In this document: piece by piece, positions 7,318 to 64,000 of the stretch
How positions within the stretch are numbered: position 1 is the first letter of the stretch
Layout: the number at the start of each line of letters is the position of its first letter
Source: Hyphomonadaceae bacterium
GTDB taxonomy: Bacteria; Pseudomonadota; Alphaproteobacteria; Caulobacterales; Hyphomonadaceae
Direction: 5' to 3'
DNA: 64,000 bases
Assembly: GCA_024742355.1 (NCBI GenBank)
Contig: JANSYM010000001.1
Span: forward strand, 310,001-374,000
The notes under the pieces: model-generated
What the model was told of the DNA's origin: nothing
The model's input: the letters and a program-made list of their open reading frames with translations, nothing else
Databases searched by the model: none
Translations under genes and position numbers: made by a program

Positions 7318-8439
7318 ATGTCATTGAAATCAAGCGCAGCCGGAATCTGGGTGATCGCCGCCGGGGTGATCATCGCCTTCCTGTATCTCGGCCGGGACAT
7401 TCTCGCGCCATTTGCGCTGGCTGTGTTCCTGTTTCTGATCATTGAAGGTTTTGCGCGGGTGATTGATGAACGCTCCGAGCTGCTCAAGCGCGGCTGGTCG
7501 CGGGCGCTCGCCATTCTCGTCGTCATAGGCGGCTTTGTTGGCTTTCTCGCGATGATGGCGCGTGGCGTCGCCGAGTTTGGCAGCCAGGGGGACGCCTATC
7601 TCAACCGCATCAATGGACTGATCGAAGATGCCTATGGCTGGCTGCATCTCGGCGACGCGCCGACCCTGACGCAATTGGTGTTCAACGAAACCGGCCAGGC
7701 CTTTCTTGGGACGATTGCCAGCGCGACCAGCGGTTTGACCGGCGATCTGGTCCTGATCCTGATCTATGTCGCTTTCCTGTTCCTCGCGCAGTCAGCCTGG
7801 CCTGTGAAACTCGACCGGATTTTCTCGAACGCAGACCGCCGCGAGCAGGTCAAAGAGGTTGGCGACGCCGCGCGCCGGGGTATCGAGACCTATTTGTGGA
7901 CGCAAACCGTGATCAGCGCCCTGATCACAGCGCTGACCTATGTGACGCTATTGGCGCTCGGCGTCGACAATGCGCTATTCTTGTCGACGCTAATATTCGT
8001 GCTGAACTATATTCCGACGATCGGTTCGATCGTCGCTGCGATGGTGCCGCCGCTTTTTGCCCTCGTACAGCCTGAGATTGCCGCCTGGATTCCGGGTGAT
8101 GCGCCGAATGACAGCTATGTCTTTGCCGCCATGGTTTTTCTCGGCGTGAGCTTCTGGCAATTCTCGATTGGCAATTTTGTGCAACCCCGGATCATGGGGG
8201 ATACACTCAACCTATCCGCGTTAGTCGTGTTATTGGCACTGGCCATCTGGGGCGCGATCTGGGGCATCCCGGGAATGTTCCTTTCAGCGCCTTTGACAGT
8301 CCTGATGATGATCCTTTTTGCGCAATCTGATTCGACGCGCTGGATCGCGATTTTACTGTCTGCAAACGGCGAACCCTTGTCACACGATAGCGCCACAAAG
8401 ACAGAAAGTGATCAGGCCCAAAGCCTTGAAACTCAATGA
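7318..8439 (+). CDS. AI-2E family transporter (PerM/TqsA-like permease)
   Basis: A 373-residue inner-membrane protein with about seven to eight hydrophobic segments. There is a long loop after the second pair, and the C-terminal core contains LNYIPTIGSIVAAMVPP and FVQPRIMGDTLNLSALVVLLAL, the hallmark region of the AI-2E transporter family (formerly UPF0118). Members export small molecules, including AI-2 or Na+/H+ in characterised cases; the substrate here is unknown. GGGAG seven bases before ATG 7318 decides the start against upstream in-frame codons. The gene follows the methyltransferase by about 60 bases and may be co-transcribed. Confidence 0.88.
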   Translation: MSLKSSAAGIWVIAAGVIIAFLYLGRDILAPFALAVFLFLIIEGFARVIDERSELLKRGWSRALAILVVIGGFVGFLAMMARGVAEFGSQGDAYLNRINGLIEDAYGWLHLGDAPTLTQLVFNETGQAFLGTIASATSGLTGDLVLILIYVAFLFLAQSAWPVKLDRIFSNADRREQVKEVGDAARRGIETYLWTQTVISALITALTYVTLLALGVDNALFLSTLIFVLNYIPTIGSIVAAMVPPLFALVQPEIAAWIPGDAPNDSYVFAAMVFLGVSFWQFSIGNFVQPRIMGDTLNLSALVVLLALAIWGAIWGIPGMFLSAPLTVLMMILFAQSDSTRWIAILLSANGEPLSHDSATKTESDQAQSLETQ

Positions 8440-49870: not shown

Positions 49871-50950
49871 ATGTCCAAACCCAACCTGCAACTCGTGGAT
49901 AAGGATTCCGGCGTGGATAAGCAGAAAGCTCTCGAAACGGCACTCGCCAACATTGACCGTGCATTTGGTAAAGGCTCGGTGATGCGCCTTGGCGAACAAA
50001 CTTCTATGGATATTGAGTCGATTCCGACAGGATCGCTCGGCCTCGACATCGCTCTTGGCATTGGCGGCCTGCCAAAAGGCCGTGTGATTGAAATTTATGG
50101 CCCGGAAAGTTCCGGTAAGACGACGCTGTCGCTGCACATTGTGGCGGAAGCGCAGAAAAATGGCGGTGTCTGCGCCTTTGTCGATGCCGAACACGCGCTT
50201 GACCCGGTCTATGCCGGCAAGCTCGGGGTTGATCTCGATGACCTCCTGGTCTCGCAGCCCGATACTGGCGAACAGGCGCTGGAAATCGCCGACACATTGG
50301 TGCGCTCCGGCGCGATTGATGTCCTGGTCATCGACTCGGTTGCGGCGCTGACGCCGCGGGCCGAGATTGAAGGTGAGATGGGCGACAGCCTGCCAGGCCT
50401 GCAAGCGCGTCTGATGAGCCAGGCGCTGCGCAAGCTGACCGGCTCGATTTCCAAGTCGAACTGCATGGTCATCTTCATCAACCAGATCCGGATGAAGATT
50501 GGCGTCATGTTTGGTAGCCCGGAAACCACGACCGGCGGTAATGCGCTGAAATTCTACTCCTCTGTCCGTCTCGACATTCGCCGCATTGGCGCGCTGAAGG
50601 ACAAGGATGAGGTGATCGGCAACCAGACCCGCGTGAAAGTGGTGAAGAACAAGGTTGCCCCACCCTTCCGCCAGGTCGAGTTCGACATCATCTATGGTGA
50701 AGGCATCTCCAAGACCGGCGAGATCATCGATCTCGGCGTCAAATGTGAAGTCATCGAGAAGTCCGGCTCCTGGTATTCCTATGGTCCGGAACGGATCGGG
50801 CAGGGGCGCGAGAAGACACGGCAATTCCTCAAGGACAATCCCGACATTCGTGACGAGATCGAGCTTGAGATTCGCAAGCGCTCCGGGCTCTTGTCCGACG
50901 TCCTGCTGACCGAAGGTGGCGGCCCGGCGGAAGAGGCTGAAGCCGGTTAA
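49871..50950 (+). CDS. recA: Recombinase A
   Basis: A 359-residue RecA, the strand-exchange and SOS co-protease. Walker A GPESSGKT (77-84), Walker [12 protein letters not shown]1/L2 DNA loops (EIEGEMGDS and [28 protein letters not shown]) and an acidic C-terminus (EEAEAG) are all as expected. AAGGA eight bases before ATG 49871 sets the start. Followed by a strong terminator, so alaS downstream has its own transcript. A DUF2093 gene is divergent. Confidence 0.98.
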
Positions 50951-50987
50951 GCTGCGGCCCGAAACAGGGCCAAAAATCAGACCATGT

Positions 50988-51024
50988 GCAACGCGCCCGC
51001 GGAAACGCTTGGCGCGTTGCTTTT
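50988..51024 (+). terminator. Rho-independent terminator after recA
   Basis: GCAACGCGCC (50988-50997) pairs exactly with GGCGCGTTGC (51011-51020), followed by TTTT. Confidence 0.9.
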
Positions 51025-51086
51025 ATGGACATATATCCACCCCCGAGAACGCGCTCATGATGGGCACAGCGGCAAAAGGAAGTTCC

Positions 51087-53738
51087 ATGACGAGTGTCAA
51101 CGATCTGCGCGAAGCATTTCTGTCCTATTTCGAAAGCAAGGGACATGTCCGCAAAGCCTCCGCGCCGCTGGTGCCGGAGAACGATCCGACCTTGCTGTTC
51201 GTCAATGCCGGCATGGTGCCGTTCAAGAACATCTTTACCGGCGCCGAGACCCCGTTCGCCCCGCGCGCGACGACCTCGCAGAAATGCGTCCGCGCCGGCG
51301 GCAAGCACAATGATCTCGACAATGTCGGCTACACCGCCCGCCACCACACGTTCTTCGAAATGCTCGGCAACTTCTCGTTCGGCGACTATTTCAAGGACGA
51401 CGCCATCGCCATGGGCTGGGAGCTGGTGACCAGGGAGCTCGGCCTGCCGGCGGACAAATTGCTGGTCACCGTGTTTGCTGAAGATGATGAGGCCGCTGCG
51501 ATCTGGAAGAAAGTCGCGGGCCTGCCGGACGACCGCATCATCCGCATCGCAACGTCGGACAATTTCTGGTCAATGGGCGATACTGGCCCATGCGGACCCT
51601 GTTCGGAGATCTTCTTCGATCACGGGCCTGAGGTCTGGGGCGGCCCGCCCGGAACGCCGGAAGAGGATGGCGATCGGTTCATCGAAATCTGGAACCTGGT
51701 CTTCATGCAATTCGACCAGCAGCATGGCGGCGACCGCACCAATCTGCCCAAGCCGTCCATCGATACCGGCATGGGCCTGGAGCGGATCGCGGCGGTCCTG
51801 CAGGGCGTCCACAATAATTACGAGATTGACCTGTTCCAGAACCTGATCGCGGCCGAGGAAGACGTCTATTCCCAGAACGCGACCGGCGACCAGCTCGGCT
51901 CATTCCGCGTGATTGCCGACCATTTGCGCACGTCGGCCTTCCTGGTTGCCGACGGTGTGACGCCGTCAAATGAAGGGCGCGGCTATGTCCTGCGCCGGAT
52001 CATGCGGCGCGCCATGCGCCATGCCCACATTCTCGGCGCGCGCGAACCCGGCATGCACAAGCTGGTGCCGGCCCTGATCACCGAAATGGGCGCCGCCTAT
52101 CCCGAACTGGGCCGTGCCCAGGCCGCGATCGAGAGCGCGCTCGAACAGGAAGAGAGTCGGTTCCAGAAGACATTGGGCCGCGGGCTCGCCTTGCTCGACG
52201 ATGCCAGCGGCGATCTGAAAGAAGGCGATACGCTGCCCGGCGAGACCGCTTTCAAACTGTATGACACGTTCGGCTTCCCGCTCGACCTGACACAGGACAT
52301 CCTGCGCGGCCGCGGCATGAGCGTCGACGAGACGGGCTTTGACGCTGCCATGGCGAAACAGAAAGAGGGCTCGAAAGCGGCCGGCTTTACCTCAGGCGAC
52401 GCCGCCTCCGGCGAGGTCTGGTTCCGCCTGCTGGATGACGTCGGCGCCACGGAATTCCTTGGCTATTCCGATCTTGCCGGCGATGCGAAACTTGTTGCGA
52501 TGGTTTCGGATGGCAGTCCGGTAAATTCTCTGAACAGCGGCGATGAGGCCGAGCTTTTGCTCGACCGGACGCCCTTCTATGCCGAAAGCGGCGGCCAGGC
52601 CGGCGATCATGGCGTCATCGAAACCAAAGGCGGCGCCCGCTTCATCGTTCGCGACGTGCAGAAACGCGCTGGCGACCTCCACGCCCATATTGGCGAAATG
52701 GTCGAAGGTTCGCTCTCGGTCGGCGATGCGGTATCGGCCCAGGTTAATGGCGACCGCCGGACGCGGATCATGGCCAACCATTCGGCCACCCACCTGATGC
52801 ATGCCGCCCTGCGCGATGTGCTCGGTGAGCATGTCACCCAGAAAGGCTCCCTGGTCGAGGAAGAGCGCATGCGCTTTGACTTCTCGCATGGCGCGCCGGT
52901 CACGCCTGCTGAAATCGAGGCGATCGAGGACCAGGTCAATGCCGTCATCCGGCAGAACAATCCGGTCGGCATTGCCGTGACGACGCCTGAAAAGGCGATC
53001 GAGGCAGGCGCGCTGGCTTTGTTCGGTGAAAAATATGGCGACGAAGTGCGCGTCCTGTCCATGGGCACGGATCTGCAGGATGCCGACAAGACCTATTCGG
53101 TCGAACTGTGCGGCGGCACGCATGTCGAGCGCACGGGCGATATTGGCACCTTTGTCATCCTGTCCGAAAGTGGCGTCTCTGCGGGCGTACGGCGCATCGA
53201 AGTGGCAACGGGCGCCGAAGCCCTGGCCTTCCTGCGCAGCCGCGCCCAGGTCGCGGTCGATCTCTCGGATCAGCTGAAAGTGCCGCTGAAAGATGTCGGC
53301 AAGAAAGTCGCCAGCCTCACCGAAGACCGCAAGGCGCTGGAACGCCAGCTCGCTGACGCCAAGCGCGCGCTTGCCATGGCCGGCGAGAGCGGCGCGCCAT
53401 CTGGCCCGGAAGAGATCAATGGCGTCAACCTGATCGCGCGCGTCGCGGAAGGCGTGGGCGGCAAGGATTTGCGGGCCCTCATCGACGAGGCCAAGGCGCA
53501 GATGAAGTCCGGCATCGCTGTCTTTATCGGCGTCAATGATGGCAAGGCGGCAGTCGCTGTCGGCGTGACCGAGGACCTGATCGGCACGCGTTCAGCGGTC
53601 GACCTGGTGCGCGTCGCCGCAGCAGAAGTGGGCGGCAAAGGCGGCGGCGGCCGCCCTGACATGGCGCAGGCTGGCGGACCTGATGGCTCAAAGGCGGAAG
53701 CGGCTCTGGATGCGGTTCGCGCGGCGCTGAAGAGGTAG
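51087..53738 (+). CDS. alaS: Alanyl-tRNA synthetase
   Basis: An 883-residue class II synthetase, full length. The N-terminal catalytic core starts with [14 protein letters not shown] and [17 protein letters not shown]. The tRNA recognition domain follows. The editing domain has the HxxxH zinc motif in [19 protein letters not shown] and the partner [11 protein letters not shown]. The C-terminal C-Ala domain ends [17 protein letters not shown] 51087 follows GGAAG and matches the family; the longer frame crosses the recA terminator. Charges tRNA-Ala in the cytosol. Confidence 0.98.
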
Positions 53739-53755
53739 CGCCGCGCGGGCGCAGA

Positions 53756-54589
53756 CTAAACAATCCGCGGCAACCACATGCCCATCACTGCAGCGAAGAT
53801 GCCGATCGACATCGCGGCGGTCGCGACAAAGACAACAGACGCGGCAGCGAGCTTCGCAGCGCCGTGCCGCTGCGGTGCGCTGGCCCACAGATAGATTTCC
53901 AGCAAGAGCAGCGGCAGCGCCATCTGGCCGAAATACCAGCTATAGATAAACGGTCCGGAAAAGGTCTCCGTGTCGATCCCGATGCCGCCCGTGGTCATGA
54001 ACCAGAACATCATTCCGACGCGGAAGAACCAGACTGCACTGACCACCATGAACAGGCGCATGGCCCAGCGCCGGTGGCGGTCGAACTGGCGGGCGACGGC
54101 ATAGCGCAAAGCCAGCGCGCCGAAAGCCAGGATCAGGACCGCATCCAGGCTGATCGCGACATGACCGGCAAGGCCGCCCAGCACGCCGCGCGTCCAGACG
54201 AGATACAGACCGGCAATGCTGGTGAAGAAGGCGAAGAAGAGATAGGTGCGACCGAGATTTCGATGTAGAGCGGGGAAGCGGTTCCGGATCGCTGGGATCA
54301 GCTGCAAAGGGCCGCCGCCGACAATGATGATGGCCACCAGAATGTGTCCGGCAATGGCGAGATTGCCGACCAGGTCGCCGGCCGCATGGCCATGCGGAAG
54401 GTGCGTGTCGCCCAGTCCCGGCAGACCGCCCAGGGCGAGCACCGGGACATAGAAGCCGATCACATAAGCGACGAACAGCCATTGCCCGAATGCGGCGATC
54501 AGAAACCAGATCTGTCCGCTCAGTGTTAGCGCTTTCTGGGCATTCAGGTTCAGCTGCCATCCTGGGGAGTCGTGGGCTGCGCTTTGCAT
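53756..54589 (-). CDS. DUF2306 domain-containing membrane protein
   Basis: A 277-residue inner-membrane protein with about seven to eight helices. LQLIPAIRNRFPALHRNLGRTYLFF and FDRHRRWAMRLFMVVSAVWFFRVGMMFWF match DUF2306 (YozB-like) proteins; conserved His (GHILVA, PALHRN, RHRRW) may bind heme or metal. Function unknown. Divergent from the AraC-type regulator at 54.7 kb, which may control it. The stop lies 18 bases from the convergent alaS end. Confidence 0.85.
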   Translation of the reverse strand: MQSAAHDSPGWQLNLNAQKALTLSGQIWFLIAAFGQWLFVAYVIGFYVPVLALGGLPGLGDTHLPHGHAAGDLVGNLAIAGHILVAIIIVGGGPLQLIPAIRNRFPALHRNLGRTYLFFAFFTSIAGLYLVWTRGVLGGLAGHVAISLDAVLILAFGALALRYAVARQFDRHRRWAMRLFMVVSAVWFFRVGMMFWFMTTGGIGIDTETFSGPFIYSWYFGQMALPLLLLEIYLWASAPQRHGAAKLAAASVVFVATAAMSIGIFAAVMGMWLPRIV

Positions 54590-54716
54590 GTTCCAACCTC
54601 GATTTGTTTACGTACAAGGCTCGCTACTTGCAGTCGGGCCAATTGTTGCCAATGATCCGCGATACCAAATGCTTGACTGAAACAGACACCGCCTGCGCCA
54701 CTGAAAGGCCCGTTCA

Positions 54717-55739
54717 TTGTCCCCTCAGCCCACTGTTTCCGCTGGATATGCCAAAGCGCTCTTCGATCTCGCGGTTGAACGCGGGGCGCCGGCGGGTGTA
54801 CTGCTCGAGGCCGCCGCCTTGCAAACAGCGGATTTCGAGAACCCGCTGGCCCGCATTCCGCTGACAAAATTCAAGGCGCTGATGCGGCAGGGCAAGCGAC
54901 TGTCCGGCGAGCCGGGCCTGGCCCTGTATTTTGGCGCGACCATTCCATTCGATGACCTGTCCATTGTCGGCCTGATCTGCCGGGCGGCGCCGACCATGGA
55001 AGCGGCGTTCAACCAGATGAACCGTTATGGCCGCCTGATCATCGACACGGATGGCGGTCAGTCTGGTGACCGGTTCGTGATTTCCCGGCGGGGCGGCCGC
55101 GTTTTCATTGACGATACGCGCGACGCGCCGGACGAATTTCCGGAGCTCACGGAATCGACTCTTGGGCGGTTCATTTGCGGGGTCGGCCGCCATTTCCCCG
55201 ATCGCGGCTTCTTTCTGTCTGCAGAGGTGACCTATTCCCGTCCGGGTCATGCCGCGCTGTATGAGGCCTTGCTCGGCGTGCCGGTCCGGTTTGGCGGCCA
55301 GTTCAATGCCATGGAGGTCAGCGAGACCTGGCTCTCCTTCCGCATCAACCGGCCGAACAATTACGTCTTTGGTGTGCTCAGCGACCAGGCGGCCGAGCTT
55401 CTGACGCAGCTGGAGTCCAGCTCCAGTGTGCGCGCCGAGATTGAGCGCCGGCTGATGCCGCTATTGCATACGGGCGACACGGACATGCGCGCCATCGCCG
55501 CGGAGATGGGCTGCAGCGCGCAGACCCTGTATCGTCGGCTGAAGCGCGAGGAGACGAGCTTTAAGGACGTCGTCGATGAGCTGCGCCGCAAACTCGCCAT
55601 TGATTATCTTCGCAGTGGTAAAGTGACGGTCAGCGAGACCGCCTATCTGGTCGGCTTCTCCGAACTCAGCGCCTTCTCGCGCGCGTTCAAGAGATGGACC
55701 GGCAAGACTCCGGGGCAGTTTCACAAGCAGACAGGGTAG
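54717..55739 (+). CDS. AraC family transcriptional regulator
   Basis: A 340-residue regulator of the OruR/ArgR-like AraC group. The N-terminal Arabinose_bd-type domain spans residues about 20-210. The C-terminal double HTH has MRAIAAEMGCSAQTLYRRLKREETSFKDVVDELRRKLA and the second motif VSETAYLVGFSELSAFSRAFKRWTGKTPGQF. The start is TTG 54717, with AAAGG eight bases upstream; no in-frame ATG exists before residue 50. It is divergent from the DUF2306 gene, its most likely target. Effector unknown. Confidence 0.9.
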   Translation: MSPQPTVSAGYAKALFDLAVERGAPAGVLLEAAALQTADFENPLARIPLTKFKALMRQGKRLSGEPGLALYFGATIPFDDLSIVGLICRAAPTMEAAFNQMNRYGRLIIDTDGGQSGDRFVISRRGGRVFIDDTRDAPDEFPELTESTLGRFICGVGRHFPDRGFFLSAEVTYSRPGHAALYEALLGVPVRFGGQFNAMEVSETWLSFRINRPNNYVFGVLSDQAAELLTQLESSSSVRAEIERRLMPLLHTGDTDMRAIAAEMGCSAQTLYRRLKREETSFKDVVDELRRKLAIDYLRSGKVTVSETAYLVGFSELSAFSRAFKRWTGKTPGQFHKQTG

Positions 55740-56105
55740 GGGGGCCGTTCTATCCATCACGCTCTGCCCAGGCTTGTCTGGGCAGCCCATCACGAGCAAG
55801 CGCGTCTGAGATCGGGAGCGACAACACCTCTCCCGATCGCGGCAGACAGATTACGTGCTGGGCCCCACGGAAAATTCCGTGGGGAACGCTGGAAGGGAAA
55901 CCTGGGTTCACGTCAACCGCCGAAGGTGCTTCATCGAGATCAACCCGCATGCTGAATTCTTAGCGACCGATCGAACGCCAAAGCACCGCTATCTGCAGAT
56001 ACTGATATGCAGAGGCGCAGGAACCGAGTAGTTGCAGGCCAAACTGAACCTCGCCGTCTGTCCTGGACCATGCGGGATGTTTCAGCCTCATTTGAAAGTC
56101 CTGAC
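55740..56105. other. 366-base intergenic stretch with a three-hairpin repeat
   Basis: No gene is convincing here; the short open frames follow the repeat. The left half is the repeat described separately; the right half contains the imperfect dyad near 56000-56020 and the upstream region of the helicase gene. No clear promoter could be chosen. Confidence 0.6.
55758..55895 (+). repeat. Three-hairpin dispersed repeat, copy A
   Basis: Three consecutive inverted repeats: CTGCCCAG/CTGGGCAG (55764-55771/55778-55785), GATCGGGAG/CTCCCGATC (55810-55818/55830-55838) and CCCCACGGAA/TTCCGTGGGG (55863-55872/55875-55884). Spacing and sequence match copy B at 63.4 kb. It lies between the AraC gene and the helicase gene. 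Confidence 0.85.
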
Positions 56106-57947
56106 ATGAAAACCGAGTTTGAGATTGCTGCGCCCCTCGCTCAGGCGCTGGCAGACAAAGGGTTTGAGGCTTTGACCCCGGTCCAGGAAGCCGTGCTGGA
56201 CCCAGACCTGTTGGGCCGCGACTTGCTGGTCTCGGCGCAGACCGGCTCGGGCAAGACCGTCGCTTTCGGCCTGGCGCTGGCGGCATCGGTCCTTCAGGAT
56301 GCCGAGCGCCTACCAGAGGCAGAGACCCCGTCGGCGCTGATCGTGGCGCCCACCCGTGAGCTCGCGCTGCAGGTGACGAAAGAGCTGCAATGGCTGTTCG
56401 CGCCGGCTGGCGGACGCGTCGCCTGCTGCATTGGCGGCGTCGATATTCGCGATGAACGCCGCGCCCTCTCCAGAGGCGTCCATTTCGTCGTCGGCACGCC
56501 AGGGCGGCTGGTCGACCATATCCGGCGCGGCTCGCTGGACCTGGAAGACGTGCAGGCTGTCGTCCTCGATGAGGCTGACGAGATGATGGATATGGGCTTC
56601 CGCGAGGAGCTTGAACACATTCTCAACGCCGCACCTGAAGACCGGCGGACTCTGATGTTCTCGGCCACGGTGTCGAAACCGATCGCGCGGCTGGCCGAGG
56701 CCTATCAGAACAATGCGGTGCGGCTGAACACGGTCTCGGCCCAGTCGACCCATAGCGACATCACTTATCAGGCGATGACCGTGGTGCCGAATGATGTCGA
56801 GAAGGCGGTCATCAACCTGCTACTCTATCACGACGCGCCGAATGCCATCGTCTTCTGTTCGCGCCGGGATGCGGTGAACAAGCTCACCTCGCGTCTGACC
56901 AATCGCGGGTTCTCCGTGGTCGCGCTGTCGGGTGAGTTCAGCCAGAAAGAGCGTAGCAATTCCGTTCTGGCAATGCGCGATGGCCGTGCCCGCGTCTGTG
57001 TCGCTACCGATGTCGCGGCGCGCGGATTGGATTTGCCCGGGCTCGACCTGGTCATCCATGCTGACCTGCCGCGCAACAAGGAAGGTCTGCTGCACCGGTC
57101 AGGCCGCACCGGTCGGGCCGGTCGCCAGGGGGTTTGTGCGCTCATCGTCCCGGTCCGCGCGCGGCGCCGGACAGAACGTCTCCTGCACGAGGCCAAGGTT
57201 GAGGCCGAATGGCGCCTGCCGCCATCTGCGGCAGAGATTGAAGAGGCCTTGAACGCCAAGCTCCTGGTCAATGAGGTGTTCCAGGCGCCGCCGGATGAGT
57301 CAGAGGCCGGCCTTGCGGATGCATTGCTTGAAAAATACAGCCCTGAACACCTCGCCGCGGCATTGGTTCGCCTGACCCGCGCGACCGATTCCGCGCCGGA
57401 AGTGCTGCAAGATCCGGGCGCGCAAAAGCCAGGCCGGGCGCGCCAGGACCGCTATGATCCGGACCGCGACTTCCCGCGCGATGACAAGCGCGCACATGGC
57501 GGGCGCCGTGGGTCGGACTTTTCCGATGGCCAATGGGTCAAGCTCGGCGTCGGTCGCAAAAACAAAGCCGATCCGAAATGGCTGATCCCGATGTTGTGCA
57601 AGTCCGGCGGCTTCTCGCGCGGCAGCATTGGCGCCATCCGCATCGAGCCGGACGCCACCCATGTCGAGCTGAAACCGGATGCCGCCAACCGCCTGATCGA
57701 AGCGGCTGGCGAGCGCCAGATCATCGACAAGAGCATCTGGGTCGGCCTGGCCGACGCGCCGGGCGAGCCGGAACCACGCCCGAAGAAAAGAGAAGGCTTC
57801 AAAGGTAAACGCCCAAACAAGGTCCGCCGCCCTGACGGTGACAAGACGGGCGGAAAGAAGTTCGCGAAAAAACGCACCGGCCCGAAGAAACCCCGCGGTC
57901 CAAATGGTGAAAAAAAGCGCAGCAAGAAACCGGCAGGGCGGAAATAG
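56106..57947 (+). CDS. DEAD-box ATP-dependent RNA helicase with DbpA-type RNA-binding domain
   Basis: A 613-residue helicase. Core motifs: Q-motif region LTPVQEAVL, Walker A AQTGSGKT (about residue 44-51), PTRELA, DEAD (155-158), SAT, and HRSGRTGRAGRQG. A C-terminal RNA-binding domain follows (WVKLGVGRKNKADPKWLIPMLCKSGGFSRGSIGAI, DbpA type), then a very basic Lys/Arg/Gly tail. DbpA and related CsdA-type enzymes remodel ribosome assembly intermediates. I prefer ATG 56106 because the helicase fold begins there and GAAAG precedes it; upstream ATGs at 56007 and 56070 add no conserved sequence. Confidence 0.92.
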   Translation: MKTEFEIAAPLAQALADKGFEALTPVQEAVLDPDLLGRDLLVSAQTGSGKTVAFGLALAASVLQDAERLPEAETPSALIVAPTRELALQVTKELQWLFAPAGGRVACCIGGVDIRDERRALSRGVHFVVGTPGRLVDHIRRGSLDLEDVQAVVLDEADEMMDMGFREELEHILNAAPEDRRTLMFSATVSKPIARLAEAYQNNAVRLNTVSAQSTHSDITYQAMTVVPNDVEKAVINLLLYHDAPNAIVFCSRRDAVNKLTSRLTNRGFSVVALSGEFSQKERSNSVLAMRDGRARVCVATDVAARGLDLPGLDLVIHADLPRNKEGLLHRSGRTGRAGRQGVCALIVPVRARRRTERLLHEAKVEAEWRLPPSAAEIEEALNAKLLVNEVFQAPPDESEAGLADALLEKYSPEHLAAALVRLTRATDSAPEVLQDPGAQKPGRARQDRYDPDRDFPRDDKRAHGGRRGSDFSDGQWVKLGVGRKNKADPKWLIPMLCKSGGFSRGSIGAIRIEPDATHVELKPDAANRLIEAAGERQIIDKSIWVGLADAPGEPEPRPKKREGFKGKRPNKVRRPDGDKTGGKKFAKKRTGPKKPRGPNGEKKRSKKPAGRK

Positions 57948-58017
57948 GGGCGGAACCGCGATGGTTTGCGAGCGTTCACGAAGCGGCGTCGCACGGCCGT
58001 TGCGGGGACGCTAAAAG

Positions 58018-58046
58018 AAAGGCGTCGATATCGAATCGACGCCTTT
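58018..58046. terminator. Bidirectional terminator between convergent genes
   Basis: A 12-base perfect inverted repeat AAAGGCGTCGAT/ATCGACGCCTTT (58018-58029/58035-58046) with a five-base loop. On the minus strand it continues into TTTCTTTT, a better terminator for the metalloprotease gene; on the plus strand it follows the helicase. Confidence 0.85.
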
Positions 58047-58068
58047 GATCGTGGATGTAACCGCGAGA

Positions 58069-59643
58069 CTAGTTCGATGGTCCTGGAACAGAAGAGGGTC
58101 CATTTCCGGGAGCGCCCTCAACCGTATAGGCGAGCAGATTATAGTCCCCCGTTCGGAAACTGTTCAGGCCCAGCGCGCCGAGTGAAACCAGTGTTCCGTC
58201 AGCGAGCGGCACCAGGTCTGGACCTGTAACCTCAATTCGATATGTACCAGTTTCCGGAAGCGTATAGTCGAAGATCAACGGTTCCAATCCTTCAAAGGTT
58301 CGCTGATTGGCTGCAACTTCAACAAACGATCCGTCAGCTTGTCGCAATTGCAGGCTCAGGCGCGCGAGCACGAAATCCGCAATATTGCTATCAGAGCTGG
58401 ATATGATCTCCGCGTTAAACACATCGCCGGCGCGGCCGTCGATTTCATAGTGATCTGCTTCATCCAACTGGGCGATCGTGCCGTTTACCAGCCCGGCCCG
58501 GACGTCCAGCTTGCCACCAGAGTTTGCGCCAGCAAGCAATGGATTTGCGGCAACGACTTTATTCAGATCCAGCTTGCCATTGGTGACGGCAATGAAGTCT
58601 TCTTCGATGGCGCGTGTTCGCGCATTGATCGCGAGCTTCACAGCTGAGCGTTCAGAAAAGAAGCGGTCGACAAATGGTGGACTGTTCAATGCAAGCCCCG
58701 CACTGGCACCTGAAGCCATGATGTGACTCAGCGTTTCGAGCGCTGTCTGATCCGTCTCCAACAATGGGATGAATTCGCCTGGGGAGCGGGCCGGAGGCAA
58801 ACCACTTCCTGGTGCGCCGAATGAATCATGGTGGCGCAAGCCCTGGATATGGCCCAGCTCGTGCGACGCAGTGTTTGCCGATTGATTGACCACGGCGATC
58901 CGACGGAACGTCTCGATGCCTGCGGCGTCCAATGGCGCGCCGAGGCCTAGAAAGCCAGCCAAATTCTGCGTCCCGAAATTGGCATCCAATTCAGCGAGCA
59001 ATTGCCAAAAACTCGCATCAACGAATGCGCCGTCATTTCGAGAATCGTTTCCAAAGTCGATATTGTCGGCCCGCCCGAACAGAATGCCTCCGGCAAGGTC
59101 GATCGGATTGGCATCATTGTCGCCAATTCTCAGGGTCGTGTAATCGCCTGAACCAGGCTCGGTTTGCGTGAACTCGTAATTGTAAGCGGCGTAGTCGTCT
59201 TCCAGGCGTTGCTGGATGAAGTCTCGATCCGATTGTGAGTAGATGTAGTCCGGAAAAATCCCGCCTGCGAACGGAACACCATTGACGAAAACATTGAAAA
59301 ACGGAGAGGCACTGCCGAACCGCAGATAGACCACTTGCGGGGCATTATTCTGCTGGCCTTGTTTGAGCCCGCGTCCATTGGTGCCGGTATTCGAAGATGC
59401 GGCATTCGCCTGCATGGCGGCGGCATTTACCACGCCCTGCCGGTCGGCCGCAAAATCTTGCAGGAACGCCACCAGTTCCGCTTCAGTTTCCGGCTGGAAA
59501 GAGGCGCACATGGACAGCGGGCAATGATCAAACTCGATCCGCAAATTATTGTCGGTCAGGTCGGCGTCGACTTGAGCGCTCGCCGCGCCCCAACCAAGCG
59601 CGGAAACGGCCGCTGCTGCTGCGAACAATTTTACTAATTTCAT
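58069..59643 (-). CDS. Secreted metzincin-type metalloprotease
   Basis: A 524-residue secreted protein: signal peptide ending near SALGWGAASA, a zinc site HELGHIQGLRHHD (HExxHxxGxxH at residues 261-271) and a Met-turn candidate SHIMASG. This is the metzincin layout of matrixin or pappalysin-like proteases. The C-terminal third resembles PPC (pre-peptidase C-terminal) beta-domains (FDYTLPETGTYRIEVTG). It ends in Ser/Pro-rich GPSSVPGPSN without a sorting signal I recognise. GGGAG before ATG 59643 sets the start. It is probably an extracellular protease or peptidase; substrates unknown. Flanked by a terminator. Confidence 0.82.
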   Translation of the reverse strand: MKLVKLFAAAAAVSALGWGAASAQVDADLTDNNLRIEFDHCPLSMCASFQPETEAELVAFLQDFAADRQGVVNAAAMQANAASSNTGTNGRGLKQGQQNNAPQVVYLRFGSASPFFNVFVNGVPFAGGIFPDYIYSQSDRDFIQQRLEDDYAAYNYEFTQTEPGSGDYTTLRIGDNDANPIDLAGGILFGRADNIDFGNDSRNDGAFVDASFWQLLAELDANFGTQNLAGFLGLGAPLDAAGIETFRRIAVVNQSANTASHELGHIQGLRHHDSFGAPGSGLPPARSPGEFIPLLETDQTALETLSHIMASGASAGLALNSPPFVDRFFSERSAVKLAINARTRAIEEDFIAVTNGKLDLNKVVAANPLLAGANSGGKLDVRAGLVNGTIAQLDEADHYEIDGRAGDVFNAEIISSSDSNIADFVLARLSLQLRQADGSFVEVAANQRTFEGLEPLIFDYTLPETGTYRIEVTGPDLVPLADGTLVSLGALGLNSFRTGDYNLLAYTVEGAPGNGPSSVPGPSN

Positions 59644-59783
59644 GAACAACTCCCTCTTTTTATTTCAGCAACACTTACGTTGAAGGGGCGTATCGTCCAG
59701 TTAATTCGTGTTCTTGATTAGAATTTTCCGCCTTGGCACCAGCTTAGAGGCCGTCGGCGAACCATCGCGTTCAAATGTCCCGC

Positions 59784-60449
59784 TCACACATCTCCCGGAA
59801 ACACCGGCTCGTCATCCCCCGCCTGCCATTGCGCGTATTTCGGCATGATCTGCTTGAACAGGGCGCTGTCGAGATGGTGCGCGAGCCAGCGCTGGAGATG
59901 CGGCAAGTCCAGCGCGTCGAACCAGGTGCGGTCGGTGTTGGCGAACTGGCGGATGAATGGGAAGATGGCGATATCGGCATAGCTGACGCGGTCACCGAAC
60001 AGGTGCGGGCGGGTCGCGAGTTGCGCGTTGAGTATCTCGAGAAACGCGAGGCCCAGAGCGCGTTGCTCGTCGCGCACCACGCCTTCATCCTCATAGCGAT
60101 TGGGATATTTGTAGCGGTCGAGCGCGTGCTTGAACGGGCCGTCGCATTCGGCGATCAGGGCGTCCATGTCGGCGGGGCTGCCTGTGTCCGGGCTCAGCCA
60201 GTCACCGGTATCATTGCGGGTGAGCGCCCAGGCCATGACATCGAGACTTTCCTCGATCACCGTGCCGTCTGGTTCGACAATCACCGGCACCGTGCCCTTG
60301 GGCGAGGCCTCGAGCATTTCGGCCGGTTTGTCGCGCAGCACGACTTCGCGCAGGCGGCATTCAATGCCCGCGTTTGCAATCGCCATGCGCGCGCGCATCG
60401 CATAAGGGCAGCGTCGGAAAGAATAGAGGATCGGCCGGGCGCCGCTCAC
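59784..60449 (-). CDS. Glutathione S-transferase family protein
   Basis: A 221-residue GST with the N-terminal redox-like motif CPYAMRAR and GTVPVIVEPDGTVIEES glutathione-binding turn, then the helical C-terminal domain (SYADIAIFPFIRQFA). Start is GTG 60449, which overlaps the TGA of trhO (GTGA), so the two genes are translationally coupled. Substrate unknown. Confidence 0.88.
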   Translation of the reverse strand: MSGARPILYSFRRCPYAMRARMAIANAGIECRLREVVLRDKPAEMLEASPKGTVPVIVEPDGTVIEESLDVMAWALTRNDTGDWLSPDTGSPADMDALIAECDGPFKHALDRYKYPNRYEDEGVVRDEQRALGLAFLEILNAQLATRPHLFGDRVSYADIAIFPFIRQFANTDRTWFDALDLPHLQRWLAHHLDSALFKQIMPKYAQWQAGDDEPVFPGDV

Positions 60450-61402
60450 GCAGACACTTTCTTGCGCGGCGTCATCACGACATTGTCGCCAATATGGCTT
60501 TCGCCGCGCTGGCGGGCGAGGCGCACCTGCTTCTGGCGTTCGCGCAAGGCGGCCATCTTGGCCTCGGTGAAGGTGCCATGGCAGCGCGGGCAGGAGACGC
60601 CGTCCTCGTACTTTTCGTCGGCGCGGTCCTCGGCACTGACCGGGTGGCGGCAGGCATGGCAGAGCTGATAATCACCGACTTCCAGGCCATGGCCGACACT
60701 AACGCGCTCATCAAAGACGAAACATTCGCCTTCCCAGAGACTGTCTTCCTCAGGCACGGTTTCGAGGTATTTGAGAATGCCGCCCTGCAGGTGGAAAACA
60801 TCCTCGATGCCGAGGGATTTCACGTAAGAGGTCGATTTCTCGCAGCGAATGCCGCCGGTGCAGAACATCGCAATTTTCGGTGTCCGGCCCTGTGCGGCGA
60901 GCTCAGCGCGGAATTTTTCGAACCATTCGGGAAACGCGCGAAAGCTCTCGGTTTCCGGATCGATGGCGCCCTGAAAGGTGCCGAGCGCGACTTCATAATC
61001 ATTGCGCGTGTCGATGACGACCGTGTCGGGATCGCTGATCAAATCATTCCAGTCTTCAGGCTTCACATAGGCCCCGACGAGACAGGTCGGGTCGGTGCCC
61101 GGCACGCCCATGGTGACGATCTCATTCTTCAGGCGCACTTTCAGACGCAGGAAAGGCATCGCCTCGGCATGGCTGTCTTTCCATTCCAGGCTGGCACAGC
61201 CGGGCAGGGCGCGGATCGCCTCCAGCGCCGCGTCCATGGCCTCCGGGGTTCCGGCAATGGTGCCGTTCACGCCTTCCGTGGCGAGCAGGATGGTGCCTTT
61301 GATCCCGAGCGCATTGAGACGCTCGAACAGCGGCGCGCGCAGGGCTTCGGGATCGTCAAAACTGACAAACTTATACAGGGCGGTGACACGAATATTCGAC
61401 AT
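60446..61402 (-). CDS. trhO: tRNA uridine(34) hydroxylase TrhO
   Basis: A 318-residue rhodanese-domain protein of the TrhO/YceA family, which installs 5-hydroxyuridine at position 34 of certain tRNAs using oxygen. The catalytic loop is CTGGIRC with flanking MFCTGGIRCEKSTSY; a C-terminal zinc-finger-like region (LCHACRHPVS and CPRCHGTF) follows. Length is as in E. coli YceA with an extended tail. It heads the two-gene operon with the GST. Confidence 0.95.
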   Translation of the reverse strand: MSNIRVTALYKFVSFDDPEALRAPLFERLNALGIKGTILLATEGVNGTIAGTPEAMDAALEAIRALPGCASLEWKDSHAEAMPFLRLKVRLKNEIVTMGVPGTDPTCLVGAYVKPEDWNDLISDPDTVVIDTRNDYEVALGTFQGAIDPETESFRAFPEWFEKFRAELAAQGRTPKIAMFCTGGIRCEKSTSYVKSLGIEDVFHLQGGILKYLETVPEEDSLWEGECFVFDERVSVGHGLEVGDYQLCHACRHPVSAEDRADEKYEDGVSCPRCHGTFTEAKMAALRERQKQVRLARQRGESHIGDNVVMTPRKKVSA

Positions 61403-61463
61403 GGCCCGGGCTTATGCCAGAACCGGCGCCCGGAGGAAAGTCAGGGCAATCACGTGGTTTGCA

Positions 61464-61907
61464 CTAACAGCAGCCGCGTGCGCTCCGGGTTTTGGGCGCC
61501 GGCTTTGCGACAGTCTCCGGGGCGAAGTCCTCGCCATAGGTCTGGATCGTGCCCATGGTGTGGAACATCTCCCAGACCACGTCGGATGGATCGGTGGTCC
61601 AATGCTTGTCGCCATGGGCATAGCAACACTGCGCATCCGGCTCGTTCAGCATGGCCTGGTCGGCGCCGGCCAGGCGGTCGTGCAGCTCGGCCAGCTCATC
61701 GGCGTTTTCGGCCTGGATGCCGAGATGATTGACGCCAGCCTCGCGCGCGCCGCGCTGGCTGACGGCCAGGTTCACACGCGGATCGTCGACTTGCCATTTG
61801 GCATAATCGTCTTTGTCGACACTCGGCGCCTGACCGAACAGGGCGGAGTAAAATCGTTTCGTCGCGTCGAGGTCGTCGACGCTGATATGGACATGTAGGC
61901 GTTTCAT
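61464..61907 (-). CDS. arsI: ArsI/CadI family heavy-metal resistance enzyme (C-As lyase)
   Basis: A 147-residue vicinal-oxygen-chelate dioxygenase that cleaves the carbon-arsenic bond of trivalent organoarsenicals such as methylarsenite. The iron ligands His5, His61 and Glu113 and the vicinal thiols Cys94-Cys95 (DAQCCYAHGDKHW) correspond to the known ArsI set; a second Cys pair ends the protein (RGCC). AAGGAG six bases before ATG 61907 sets the start. It is coupled to the upstream arsR (TGATG overlap), an As(III)/MAs(III)-sensing pair. A longer frame overlapping arsR on the same strand is spurious. Confidence 0.92.
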   Translation of the reverse strand: MKRLHVHISVDDLDATKRFYSALFGQAPSVDKDDYAKWQVDDPRVNLAVSQRGAREAGVNHLGIQAENADELAELHDRLAGADQAMLNEPDAQCCYAHGDKHWTTDPSDVVWEMFHTMGTIQTYGEDFAPETVAKPAPKTRSARGCC

Positions 61908-62248
61908 CAGGGGGCTCCTTTCAAGGACAGGGTTGAGTCTTCCAGGCCGCCGACAATTTCCGGCAGGCCCTGGCAGCACTCGGACAGCAAGAAGGTCGAG
62001 AGGCCGCGCAAGGCGCTGAAACTGACGCGGTATATGATCGATCGGCCCTGGCGTTCTGAATGGATCAAACCGGCCTGGCTGAGTACATTCAGATGCTGGG
62101 ACATGAGATTGTGGCGAATGCCGAGATGGCGCGCGAGGTCTCCGGCAGCGACACCGTCGGAACCGGCTTTGACCAGCAGGACCAGCGTGTCCAGACGGGT
62201 TTCCTGGGACAAGGCGGCGAAGGCGGAGAGGGCGTTTGTTTTGTTCAT
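61907..62248 (-). CDS. arsR: ArsR-family arsenic-responsive repressor
   Basis: A 113-residue winged-helix regulator with LSQETRLDTLVLLVKAG, LARHLGIRHNLMSQHLNVLSQAG and RSIIYRVS. Its vicinal Cys91-Cys92 near the C-terminus (SECCQG) provide an arsenic-binding site of the type where the thiols lie outside the DNA-recognition helix. It heads the arsR-arsI operon; the perfect 10-base inverted repeat upstream is its likely operator. ATG 62248 is preferred to the longer 62335 start, which would include the operator. Confidence 0.9.
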   Translation of the reverse strand: MNKTNALSAFAALSQETRLDTLVLLVKAGSDGVAAGDLARHLGIRHNLMSQHLNVLSQAGLIHSERQGRSIIYRVSFSALRGLSTFLLSECCQGLPEIVGGLEDSTLSLKGAP

Positions 62249-62555
62249 GCACACCGAGATAGGGACGAAATTTATTATGTCAATGATTCGTGATATATTG
62301 ACATAATAGTTTGACCACCGCCTTGCCTTCGCCAAATTCGCTGCGTATAGCCGCTCTCTCTGCCAACCTGATCAACAAGAGGAGGGGTGCATGCAGACCA
62401 GATACGTCAACTCAAACCACCCCGTTTCTAACTCTTAGGATCAGGACCTTTTCCAATGGGCCAATCAATAGCGGGCTGCGCCAGCAGTCCATCATGCGCG
62501 CGTCTGCGCGCCCCATTTGTTTCAATTCAGCCGGAAAGGCTGGCAGGAGAATCTC
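62249..62555. other. 307-base intergenic stretch with the arsR operator
   Basis: The left end contains the arsenic operator described separately. Further right is a GC-rich palindrome GCGCGC-GTCT-GCGCGC near 62500. The stretch ends with AGGAG before the 62556 gene. The short open frames here have no signs of coding. Confidence 0.55.
62275..62306. promoter_or_regulatory. Candidate ArsR operator
   Basis: Arms TTATGTCAAT (62275-62284) and ATTGACATAA (62297-62306) are exact inverted repeats, 12 bases apart, lying 26 bases upstream of the arsR start codon. A TTGACA is embedded in each orientation, so binding would block a promoter -35 region. Confidence 0.7.
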
Positions 62556-63308
62556 ATGCGTGAGGATATGTTCAAAGTCATTGTCGAGCGTCCACGCTGG
62601 GGCAGTCGGCATGCGCCGAAGGCCAAGCTGCGCAATGACAAAGTTCCAGGCCGCAAGCGCGCCACTGGCCGTCGCCAGGCGCTTGAACAGCACGGCTATA
62701 CCAAATGCCTGAATGAGAATCTGGCGCCGCTCAAGCGCTATCTCATGAAGCAGGTCGGCCGTCCCTGGGACAAAGTTTATAGCGAGATCAGCGAGCACCT
62801 CGATACGGGCAGCACGGTGAAGCAGCACGTGCGCGATCACCTGACCGATTTCATTCTGATCAATGTCTCGGTCGATCGCGATGGCGGCTTCATGGCAACT
62901 CGTCACTGGGGCGGGCCACAACCGCCGCATCTGTGGTGGGCGAAGCTCTATGTCGATCCCAATGATGGCCTCATCAAGCGGACCGACAAATTGTGCCGAA
63001 AGCTCGGCGTGAAGGATTATCGCGGCAAGCTCCGCGACGATCGCAAACGCCGCGCGCAAGGCTGGCGCTTCGATCACAATCTGCGGGTCCTGACCGACAC
63101 GCGTGTTCTGGTGAAGCTGAAAGGCTGCTGGTTTCAGATCGACACTGATGAGGCACCAACCGACAAGTTCGGGCGTGCCCTCTATGGCCGCGATCTTGTC
63201 GAAGCGCTGGCCAAAGGAAGCTCAGACGACGGCGTCGCCTGGCGCATCATCGCCAAGCATCAGCTGAACAAGAAAGAGCTAAAAGCACACAAGCTCAGCA
63301 ATGATTGA
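62556..63308 (+). CDS. Conserved protein of unknown function
   Basis: A 250-residue protein with a strong AGGAG eight bases before ATG 62556. It begins MREDMFKVIVERPRWG and continues with LNENLAPLKRYLMKQVGRPWDKVYSEISEHLDTGSTVKQHVRDHLTDF. I recall this N-terminal pattern from uncharacterised proteins of several bacterial phyla, but no function. It is strongly basic (many Lys, Arg), without signal peptide or membrane helix, and has two Cys near the middle and C-terminus; nucleic-acid or ribosome association is plausible but unproven. Neighbouring genes give no clue: arsR-arsI upstream and repeats downstream. Confidence 0.85.
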   Translation: MREDMFKVIVERPRWGSRHAPKAKLRNDKVPGRKRATGRRQALEQHGYTKCLNENLAPLKRYLMKQVGRPWDKVYSEISEHLDTGSTVKQHVRDHLTDFILINVSVDRDGGFMATRHWGGPQPPHLWWAKLYVDPNDGLIKRTDKLCRKLGVKDYRGKLRDDRKRRAQGWRFDHNLRVLTDTRVLVKLKGCWFQIDTDEAPTDKFGRALYGRDLVEALAKGSSDDGVAWRIIAKHQLNKKELKAHKLSND

Positions 63309-63404
63309 GGGAGAGAGGCTTCGAGCAATCGGAGCCTCTTTTCTTTCGCGCCAATGTTCGCTGAGGGTCATTGGCAGACATTGCGCGGCGACCGCGCGCT
63401 CGTC

Positions 63405-63545
63405 GACGCTCTGCCCAGCCCGGTCTGGGCAGTCCATCACCCGAGCGCACTGTGAAGACCGGGAGCGAAAACATCTCTCCCGGTCCTCGCGGCAAGATCC
63501 CGTGCTGGACCCCACGGAAAATTCCGTGGGGAGCGCTTGGAGGAA
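63405..63545 (+). repeat. Three-hairpin dispersed repeat, copy B
   Basis: Same order and orientation of hairpins as copy A: CTGCCCAG/CTGGGCAG (63411-63418/63425-63432), GACCGGGAG/CTCCCGGTC (63457-63465/63477-63485) and CCCCACGGAA/TTCCGTGGGG (63510-63519/63522-63531). The third hairpin is identical in both copies. The second differs by a paired T-A to C-G change that keeps the stem. Confidence 0.85.
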
Positions 63546-63590
63546 AATGCGGATCTGCGTTTGCACATAGAGATCAGTTCCCTAATAGGC

Positions 63591-63695
63591 CCTCATCCTG
63601 AGCGAAGTCGAAGGATGAAGGGCCGTGCTTCCTGAAAGCCCGCCTCGTCCTTCGACCCCCGATCGCGTCGAGGGCAGGCTTCGCTCAGGATGAGG
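63591..63695. repeat. Long REP-like inverted repeat
   Basis: Exact 17-base terminal arms CCTCATCCTGAGCGAAG (63591-63607) and its reverse complement (63679-63695), enclosing a nested near-palindrome TCGAAGGATGA/TCGTCCTTCGA. This type of sequence is widely scattered between genes in alphaproteobacterial genomes. Confidence 0.8.
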
Positions 63696-63715
63696 CTCAA
63701 AGAGTTAACCGCTCA

Positions 63716-63788
63716 TCCCGGGCTTGACCCGGGACCTCCGGCAACGCTTCCGGTCTCTATCGCACGAGATCCCGGATCAAGTCCGGGA
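63716..63788. repeat. Head-to-head pair of REP-like hairpins
   Basis: Two 19-base hairpins, TCCCGGGCTTGACCCGGGA (63716-63734) and TCCCGGATCAAGTCCGGGA (63770-63788), are near reverse complements of one another, 35 bases apart, a BIME-like arrangement. Confidence 0.8.
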
Positions 63789-63938
63789 CAGTCGGGGTGG
63801 CGTGCATGCCCACTCCTCCACCGAAAGCCGTCATCACAAACTCCGTCCTCTAACCCCGTGTGCGTCAGGCGGTTTCCAATCCCGATCCTTCATTGCCCCA
63901 TTGTGTTTGCCCGTTGAGGCGCTACACCCCGGGCGATC

Positions 63939-64000
63939 ATGCTGACCATTTCAAACCTCGACTATCGCGTAGAAGCCCGGCCGCTTTTTGAGGGGGCGTC
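63939..64000 (+). CDS. ABC-F family ATP-binding protein (5' end only)
   Basis: The first 20 codons (MLTISNLDYRVEARPLFEGA) of an ABC-F type ATPase of the Uup/EttA class are seen before the window edge. N-termini of this form, with ISNL-Y-E-RPLF, are characteristic of ABC-F proteins that act on ribosomes. No Walker motif lies within the window, so the subfamily cannot be named. The repeat cluster ends 150 bases before the start. Confidence 0.65.
   Translation, partial: MLTISNLDYRVEARPLFEGA

Follow-up and report, generated by a model that had tools for sequence, protein, structure and literature searches.

A dispersed family of palindromes with predicted cloverleaf folds in a Hyphomonadaceae genome, read as REP-like inverted heterodimers

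The 64,000-nucleotide window analyzed here (positions 310,001 to 374,000 of contig JANSYM010000001.1, assembly GCA_024742355.1, Hyphomonadaceae bacterium) contains two copies, A and B, of a repeat family of about 132 bp that occupies at least 27 places in the genome to which the window belongs (G000; a 3.46-Mb assembly in 18 contigs). We read the element as an inverted dimer of two hairpins that resemble repetitive extragenic palindromic (REP) sequences and have unlike stems, that is, a heterodimer similar to a REPIN (REP doublet forming hairpins), with a spacer of about 70 nt that carries a stem of its own. The family most likely belongs to the small mobile or once-mobile palindromes, a known general type. 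The explanation that accounts best for it, to which we give a probability of about two in three, is that a folded strand of this heterodimer is, or was, moved in trans and that other palindromic dimers were joined to it in mosaics.

A sequence-only reading of the window had reported two same-orientation copies of a three-hairpin element, and both are present where it placed them, with cores of 132 bp each at 55759-55890 (copy A) and 63406-63537 (copy B), on the forward strand like all window features located below. The two cores are identical at 103 of 132 bases, and a genome search with copy A yields 26 matches, of which copy B, with E=1.1e-28, is far beyond what chance would give. As that reading described, hairpin 1 (55765-55784 in A and 63412-63431 in B) has the stem TGCCCAG/CTGGGCA in both copies, around the loop GCTTGT in A and CCCGGT in B, and hairpin 3 (55863-55884 and 63510-63531) is CCCCACGG/CCGTGGGG in both; hairpin 2 (55810-55838 and 63457-63485) changes from GATCGGGAG/CTCCCGATC in A to GACCGGGAG/CTCCCGGTC in B. 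In addition, our analysis reveals a potential pairing of heads and tails that the earlier reading did not include. In copy B, the left head CGCTC (63407-63411) pairs with GAGCG (63531-63535) and the left tail TCCATCAC (63433-63440) pairs, with one mismatch, with GTGCTGGA (63502-63509), in the pattern TCCA.CAC with GTG.TGGA. In copy A, the left head CGCTC (55760-55764) lies opposite GAACG (55884-55888), which is complementary at 4/5 positions, and the left tail CCCATCAC (55786-55793) lies opposite GTGCTGGG (55855-55862). The folds of A and B are 4.85 and 6.13 standard deviations below those of dinucleotide shuffles, and 0/200 shuffles are as good for either copy.

From the outside inwards, the element consists of the head CGCTC/GAGCG, hairpin 1, the tail TCCA.CAC/GTG.TGGA carrying the centre with hairpin 2, and hairpin 3. 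With RNA parameters, A and B both fold best as a cloverleaf; in copy B and in copy L006 the best RNA fold is a four-way junction with zero unpaired junction bases, and the DNA fold agrees. Folding was surveyed in 70 of the 71 copies in our catalogue (a half copy was excluded), and by our own criterion, which demands that head, tail, hairpin 1 and hairpin 3 all form, the full cloverleaf is the best fold of 44/70 copies with RNA parameters and of 44/70 with DNA parameters. The proportion is 20/24 (RNA) and 19/24 (DNA) in the window's own genome and about half in G003 and G041, two genomes of the same genus that are also copy-rich. The catalogue, which excludes L019, L020 and G003:C7:199293, also serves the comparisons of shared sites, hairpin pair counts, anatomy and mosaic organization given below.

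Taken with its head and tail, each end hairpin looks like an inverted relative of the other, and we therefore read the unit as a dimer of REPs that differ in their stems. Among 40 aligned copies, in which the arms are near-invariant and the interior is variable, the head is CGCTC in 33, CGTTC in 2, TGCTC in 2 and one of three other sequences in 1 each. The stems are 7-9 bp long and start with T-A,G-C or C-G,C-G. The loop of hairpin 1 has 5 nt in most G003 copies and 6 nt in most G000 copies, and that of hairpin 3 has 4 nt in A and B; CCA follows hairpin 1 in most copies, and its complement precedes hairpin 3. Hairpin 1 is doubled in tandem in 9/71 catalogued copies, and in L016, L021 and L022 the centre is apparently inverted, as judged by eye.

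The element is far from confined to the two copies first noticed. The places in G000 comprise at least 24 full-length copies and 2 that are cut by contig ends, all found with a covariance model built from 40 aligned copies, and 1 left half (L024) found by sequence search with copy A. The same model finds at least 23 places in G003, 19 in G041, including two degenerate ones, 2 in G001, and a single strong copy each in G013, G008 and G022. As expected for a palindrome, it matches both strands of most copies. Matches at E<=1e-3 occur in 19/29 genus genomes, and the weak ones that were folded are relatives with other stems. A class-wide search of 289 genomes with the model, run under stricter filters, gave E<=1e-5 only in the window's own genome. 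Exact matches to the right arm lie in records titled Henriciella, Hyphomonadaceae bacterium, Hyphomonas and, once, Parvularculaceae; among six such records that were folded, the clearest, Parvularculaceae included, have different stems. On contig C12 of the own genome (L125/L126), five copies form a dense cluster within 24.7 kb, starting at 7371, 11658, 16714, 22970 and 24564. In G065, a member of a different family of the order, a separate dimer of about 107 bp, built on other stems, is present in multiple copies (L082, L086; 18 model matches counting both strands).

The copies examined lie outside predicted genes, and many take part in larger mosaic units. By a home-made codon score, which also supplied the neighbor proteins, none of 23 own-genome copies examined (0/23) overlaps a predicted gene. 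Three modules accompany the element near copy B. Module U (63355-63405), a repeat of about 51 nt whose left limit is taken from the match between L019 and L020, lies directly upstream of copy B and also upstream of some G000 and G041 copies. Module D2 (63589-63698) is a second inverted palindromic repeat; it follows 8/25 catalogued copies in G000, in the same orientation and within about 25-55 nt, 10/19 in G041, where L188 with a partial D2 is uncounted, and 0/22 in G003. Module D3 (63709-63800), a third palindromic dimer, comes after D2 in 6/25 catalogued G000 copies. D2 and D3 also occur apart from the cloverleaf, with 45 and 16 genome matches, some of which are the two strands of one place. 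Two copies at contig ends share 98% identity over 157 nt, 51 of them upstream of the element, and do not match beyond. RIMEs (Rhizobium-specific intergenic mosaic elements) are mosaic repeats of palindromic modules. By description, the units seen here are like RIMEs and like the bacterial interspersed mosaic elements (BIMEs) of E. coli, as presented in passages of PMC2817692, in that palindromic modules are joined into mosaics.

Three cross-genome pairs of copies have matching sequence on both sides, and the element has probably been at these shared sites since the genomes parted. In the G000/G041 pairs L021-L194 and L017-L190, the arms are 90 and 87% identical and the interior 63 and 61%. In the G001/G041 pair L078-L198, for which the left match lies at unequal distances from the element, the arms are 72% and the interior 43% identical; the stem of hairpin 3 differs between the two genomes and is fully paired in both. 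For 60 random G000/G041 pairs, the corresponding identities are 0.82 (standard deviation 0.08) for arms and 0.62 (standard deviation 0.07) for interior. The flanks of same-site copies align poorly.

Such observations may be explained as follows. A single strand of many copies, for example the lagging-strand template, would fold as a cloverleaf in which the heads pair, the tails pair and three arms protrude, and a trans-acting enzyme would, now or formerly, recognize this folded strand and copy or move the unit. We infer that the folding takes place in the cell and that the enzyme is something other than a Y1 (RAYT/IS200) transposase detectable today in the copy-rich genomes. The hairpin arms would persist between genes while the interior and the surroundings drift, and other palindromic dimers would have joined the element to give mosaic units that recur in part of the genus.

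Several points weigh against this explanation. The best fold is other than the full cloverleaf in 26/70 copies; copy A has only two head pairs in its RNA cloverleaf and none in its DNA fold, and L024 consists of the left half alone. The 98% identity of the two contig-end copies may owe something to assembly overlap, because each is truncated where its contig stops. Among the neighbors of copies (63 loci, some overlapping; 273 predicted proteins) there is no recurrent gene family that resembles a mover; by eye, the shared neighbor clusters look like ordinary enzymes, the largest containing 5 proteins, drawn from 5 loci. Same-site copies show no clear excess of similarity over random pairs, so these sites do not demonstrate selection, and conversion between copies could equally keep the arms alike. 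Finally, the comparison at copies A and B revealed neither a clean empty site nor a target duplication, the relatives being too distant. The AraC-type gene next to copy A has relatives of at most 59% identity; at the site of copy B, the sequence after the neighboring orphan gene in G041, G008 and G001 is unlike the sequence after copy B. Of the features of miniature inverted-repeat transposable elements of DDE transposons, namely terminal inverted repeats and a target-site duplication, short inverted ends are present, and there is no empty site from which to read a target-site duplication.

The orphan gene beside copy B (62556-63308) encodes 250 amino acids, occurs in 15/100 genomes of the order and has no Pfam or NCBIfam match; the DNA before the gene also aligns with G041. 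As a candidate mover it was rejected, as the DNA flanking the related genes of G041, G008 and G001 contains no element, and of its 15 carriers only G000 and G041 are copy-rich. A GC-rich inverted repeat followed by TTTTCTTT lies after the gene at 63313-63349; it is terminator-like by eye, is not called by our consensus scan and lies under sub-threshold Rfam hits (BjrC68, ctRNA_p42d).

The closest known kind is that of the alphaproteobacterial REP dimers with a CGTC tag (Di Nocera, De Gregorio and Rocco 2013, PMC3733652), which, according to the main text of that paper, have no known transposase. As described there, these REPs have an unpaired head CGTC (or TGTC/CCTC), a stem of 8-9 bp that starts with two A-T pairs, a loop of 4-5 nt and the tail CCA; their spacers, 20-100 bp long, can have ends that are complementary or contain small stem-loops, and several families include heterodimers. 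The present family has in common with them, on the same description, inverted dimers that are mostly intergenic, the heterodimer form, the tail CCA, the type of spacer and the absence of an associated transposase. It differs in its head, which is CGCTC in most copies instead of CGTC, TGTC or CCTC, in stems that do not start with two A-T pairs, although their length roughly fits, and in a spacer with a conserved stem core and larger mosaic units. Because head and stem start differ while tail, dimer form and missing transposase agree, the family is a variant of the CGTC REP kind and not a plain member. Our model also finds relatives with CGTC or TGTC heads in G059 and G102, from two other families of the order. 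The main text of PMC3733652 makes no mention of Henriciella, Hyphomonadaceae, Hyphomonas or Maricaulis, and a literature search, made largely without subscription papers, recognized no description of this repeat family. The GTAG tag of the REPIN type moved by REP-associated tyrosine transposases (RAYTs) also appears in PMC3733652. With the REPINs of Pseudomonas, which are of this GTAG type (passages of PMC3116915), the present element shares a unit of two inverted REPs.

Compatible with the preferred explanation, and tentatively entertained here, is the possibility that the insertions now serve as 3'-end elements whose hairpins stabilize or end transcripts downstream of genes. A 3'-end stabilizing or terminating role has been proposed for other REPs. 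Copy A begins 19 bp past the stop of the AraC-type gene, and the neighbor genes of 23 own-genome copies run in the same direction in 9 cases, converge in 6, diverge in 4 and are unclassified in 4; 6/19 and 9/19 of the classified copies are therefore in convergent or same-direction settings, and the arms are present at shared sites. However, 4/19 are divergent, gene distances vary widely, and a consensus scan around A and B, which took in one type of promoter, called neither a promoter nor an intrinsic terminator.

A structured RNA, either a small RNA family or a cis-regulatory RNA with its fold kept by selection, is an unlikely alternative. The sequence-only reading had proposed a structured RNA or a structural DNA element, as opposed to a coding repeat, and had seen in hairpin 2 a compensatory base-pair change. 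What stands of this is a dispersed, non-coding, structure-forming element with more copies in genome and genus; the compensatory change does not stand as evidence. In 21 own-genome copies the pair in question is T-A in 8, C-A in 5, T-G in 5 and T-C, C-G and A-T in 1 each, so that the stem is broken by substitution in 6/21 and reduced to a wobble in 5/21. Of the two outcomes that the sequence-only reading had named as refuting it, a lack of more copies did not occur, and stem-disrupting substitutions did, in hairpin 2. Its two sides vary independently (one-sided Fisher p=0.87 for these 21 copies and p=0.79 for 55 copies from three genomes), and the change between A and B looks like coincidence. 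Alignments of 18 (A1) and 40 (A2) copies were used; outside A2 are the G000 copies L019, L020, L024, L025 and two C12 copies as well as four G003 places, and the 55-copy test adds 15/19 G041 places to A2. Within the interior arms, pairing is no better within copies than between copies (permutation P 0.74 in G000, 0.91 in G003 and 0.33 in G041).

For the whole structure in 40 copies, overall covariation is weak. Column shuffles match the observed covariation score in 20/500 cases, the number of pairs with a double change in 38/500, cells paired in 40/500 and pair types in 254/500, and slid controls are clearly below the observed values; the covariation figures are, by the tool's own warning, inflated by related sequences. 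More favorable to a structured RNA are the strong fold, the position outside predicted genes, the arms at shared sites, the cells with double change, matched by just 6/500 shuffles, and the paired changes of hairpin 1. In 70 rows, pair 6 of this hairpin is A-T in 55, G-C in 11 and unpaired in 4, and pair 7 is G-C in 48, A-T in 16, G-T in 1 and unpaired in 5; hairpin 3 shows a few paired changes. One of the 71 catalogued rows is missing from the counts of hairpin 1 and two from those of hairpin 3, and a small number of rows are out of register. Since the paired changes are confined to a few sub-types, they do not represent many independent events. Against a structured RNA also stand the lack of covariation in the centre, of a consensus promoter or terminator around A or B and of a fixed neighbor gene. 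Rfam gives no family at its curated threshold in window positions 50000-64000; of three sub-threshold hits, RF03139 (24.8 of 34.7 bits) covers hairpin 2 of copy A at 55810-55845. A DNA element is favored because the model scores both strands of most copies and because the organization is dispersed and mosaic, and the evidence gives no support to a dedicated structured RNA.

The nature of a mover bears on two further alternatives. A REPIN in the strict sense, moved by a RAYT (a Y1 tyrosine transposase), would account for an inverted hairpin dimer dispersed outside genes, and yet it is improbable here: the Y1 transposase family (PF01797) is not matched by anything in G000, G003 or G041, and the head is CGCTC-like, unlike the tag GTAG/GGAG of the REPIN/RAYT type. 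PF01797 matches 3/29 genus genomes, namely G013, where the repeat family has one strong copy, and G010 and G021, where hits of the element model are weak only (best E 3.6e-6 and 1.2e-6, respectively). Retrotransposition of an RNA, for example by a reverse transcriptase of group II intron type, would suit a folded, dispersed element and is most improbable, as reverse transcriptase (PF00078) is without a match in the same three copy-rich genomes, though it is present in 13/29 genus genomes. The genus mate G019 (L201) has six reverse-transcriptase places with identical scores; the element model matches it once, weakly.

Our analysis carries a caution for similar studies, as a compensatory change between two copies of a palindrome ceased to be evidence once 21 copies were counted. 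A bolder possibility than trans movement of a REP-like heterodimer, and a rather doubtful one, is that an enzyme which recognizes the folded four-way junction itself, and which is not a Y1 transposase or a reverse transcriptase, spreads cloverleaf palindromes and assembles them into mosaics. If this is true, the junction-recognizing enzyme would be the missing mover of CGTC-type REPs. Comparing the gene content of the three copy-rich genomes, which are without Y1 or reverse-transcriptase matches, with that of other genomes of the genus, in which strong copies are few or absent, could narrow the candidates.

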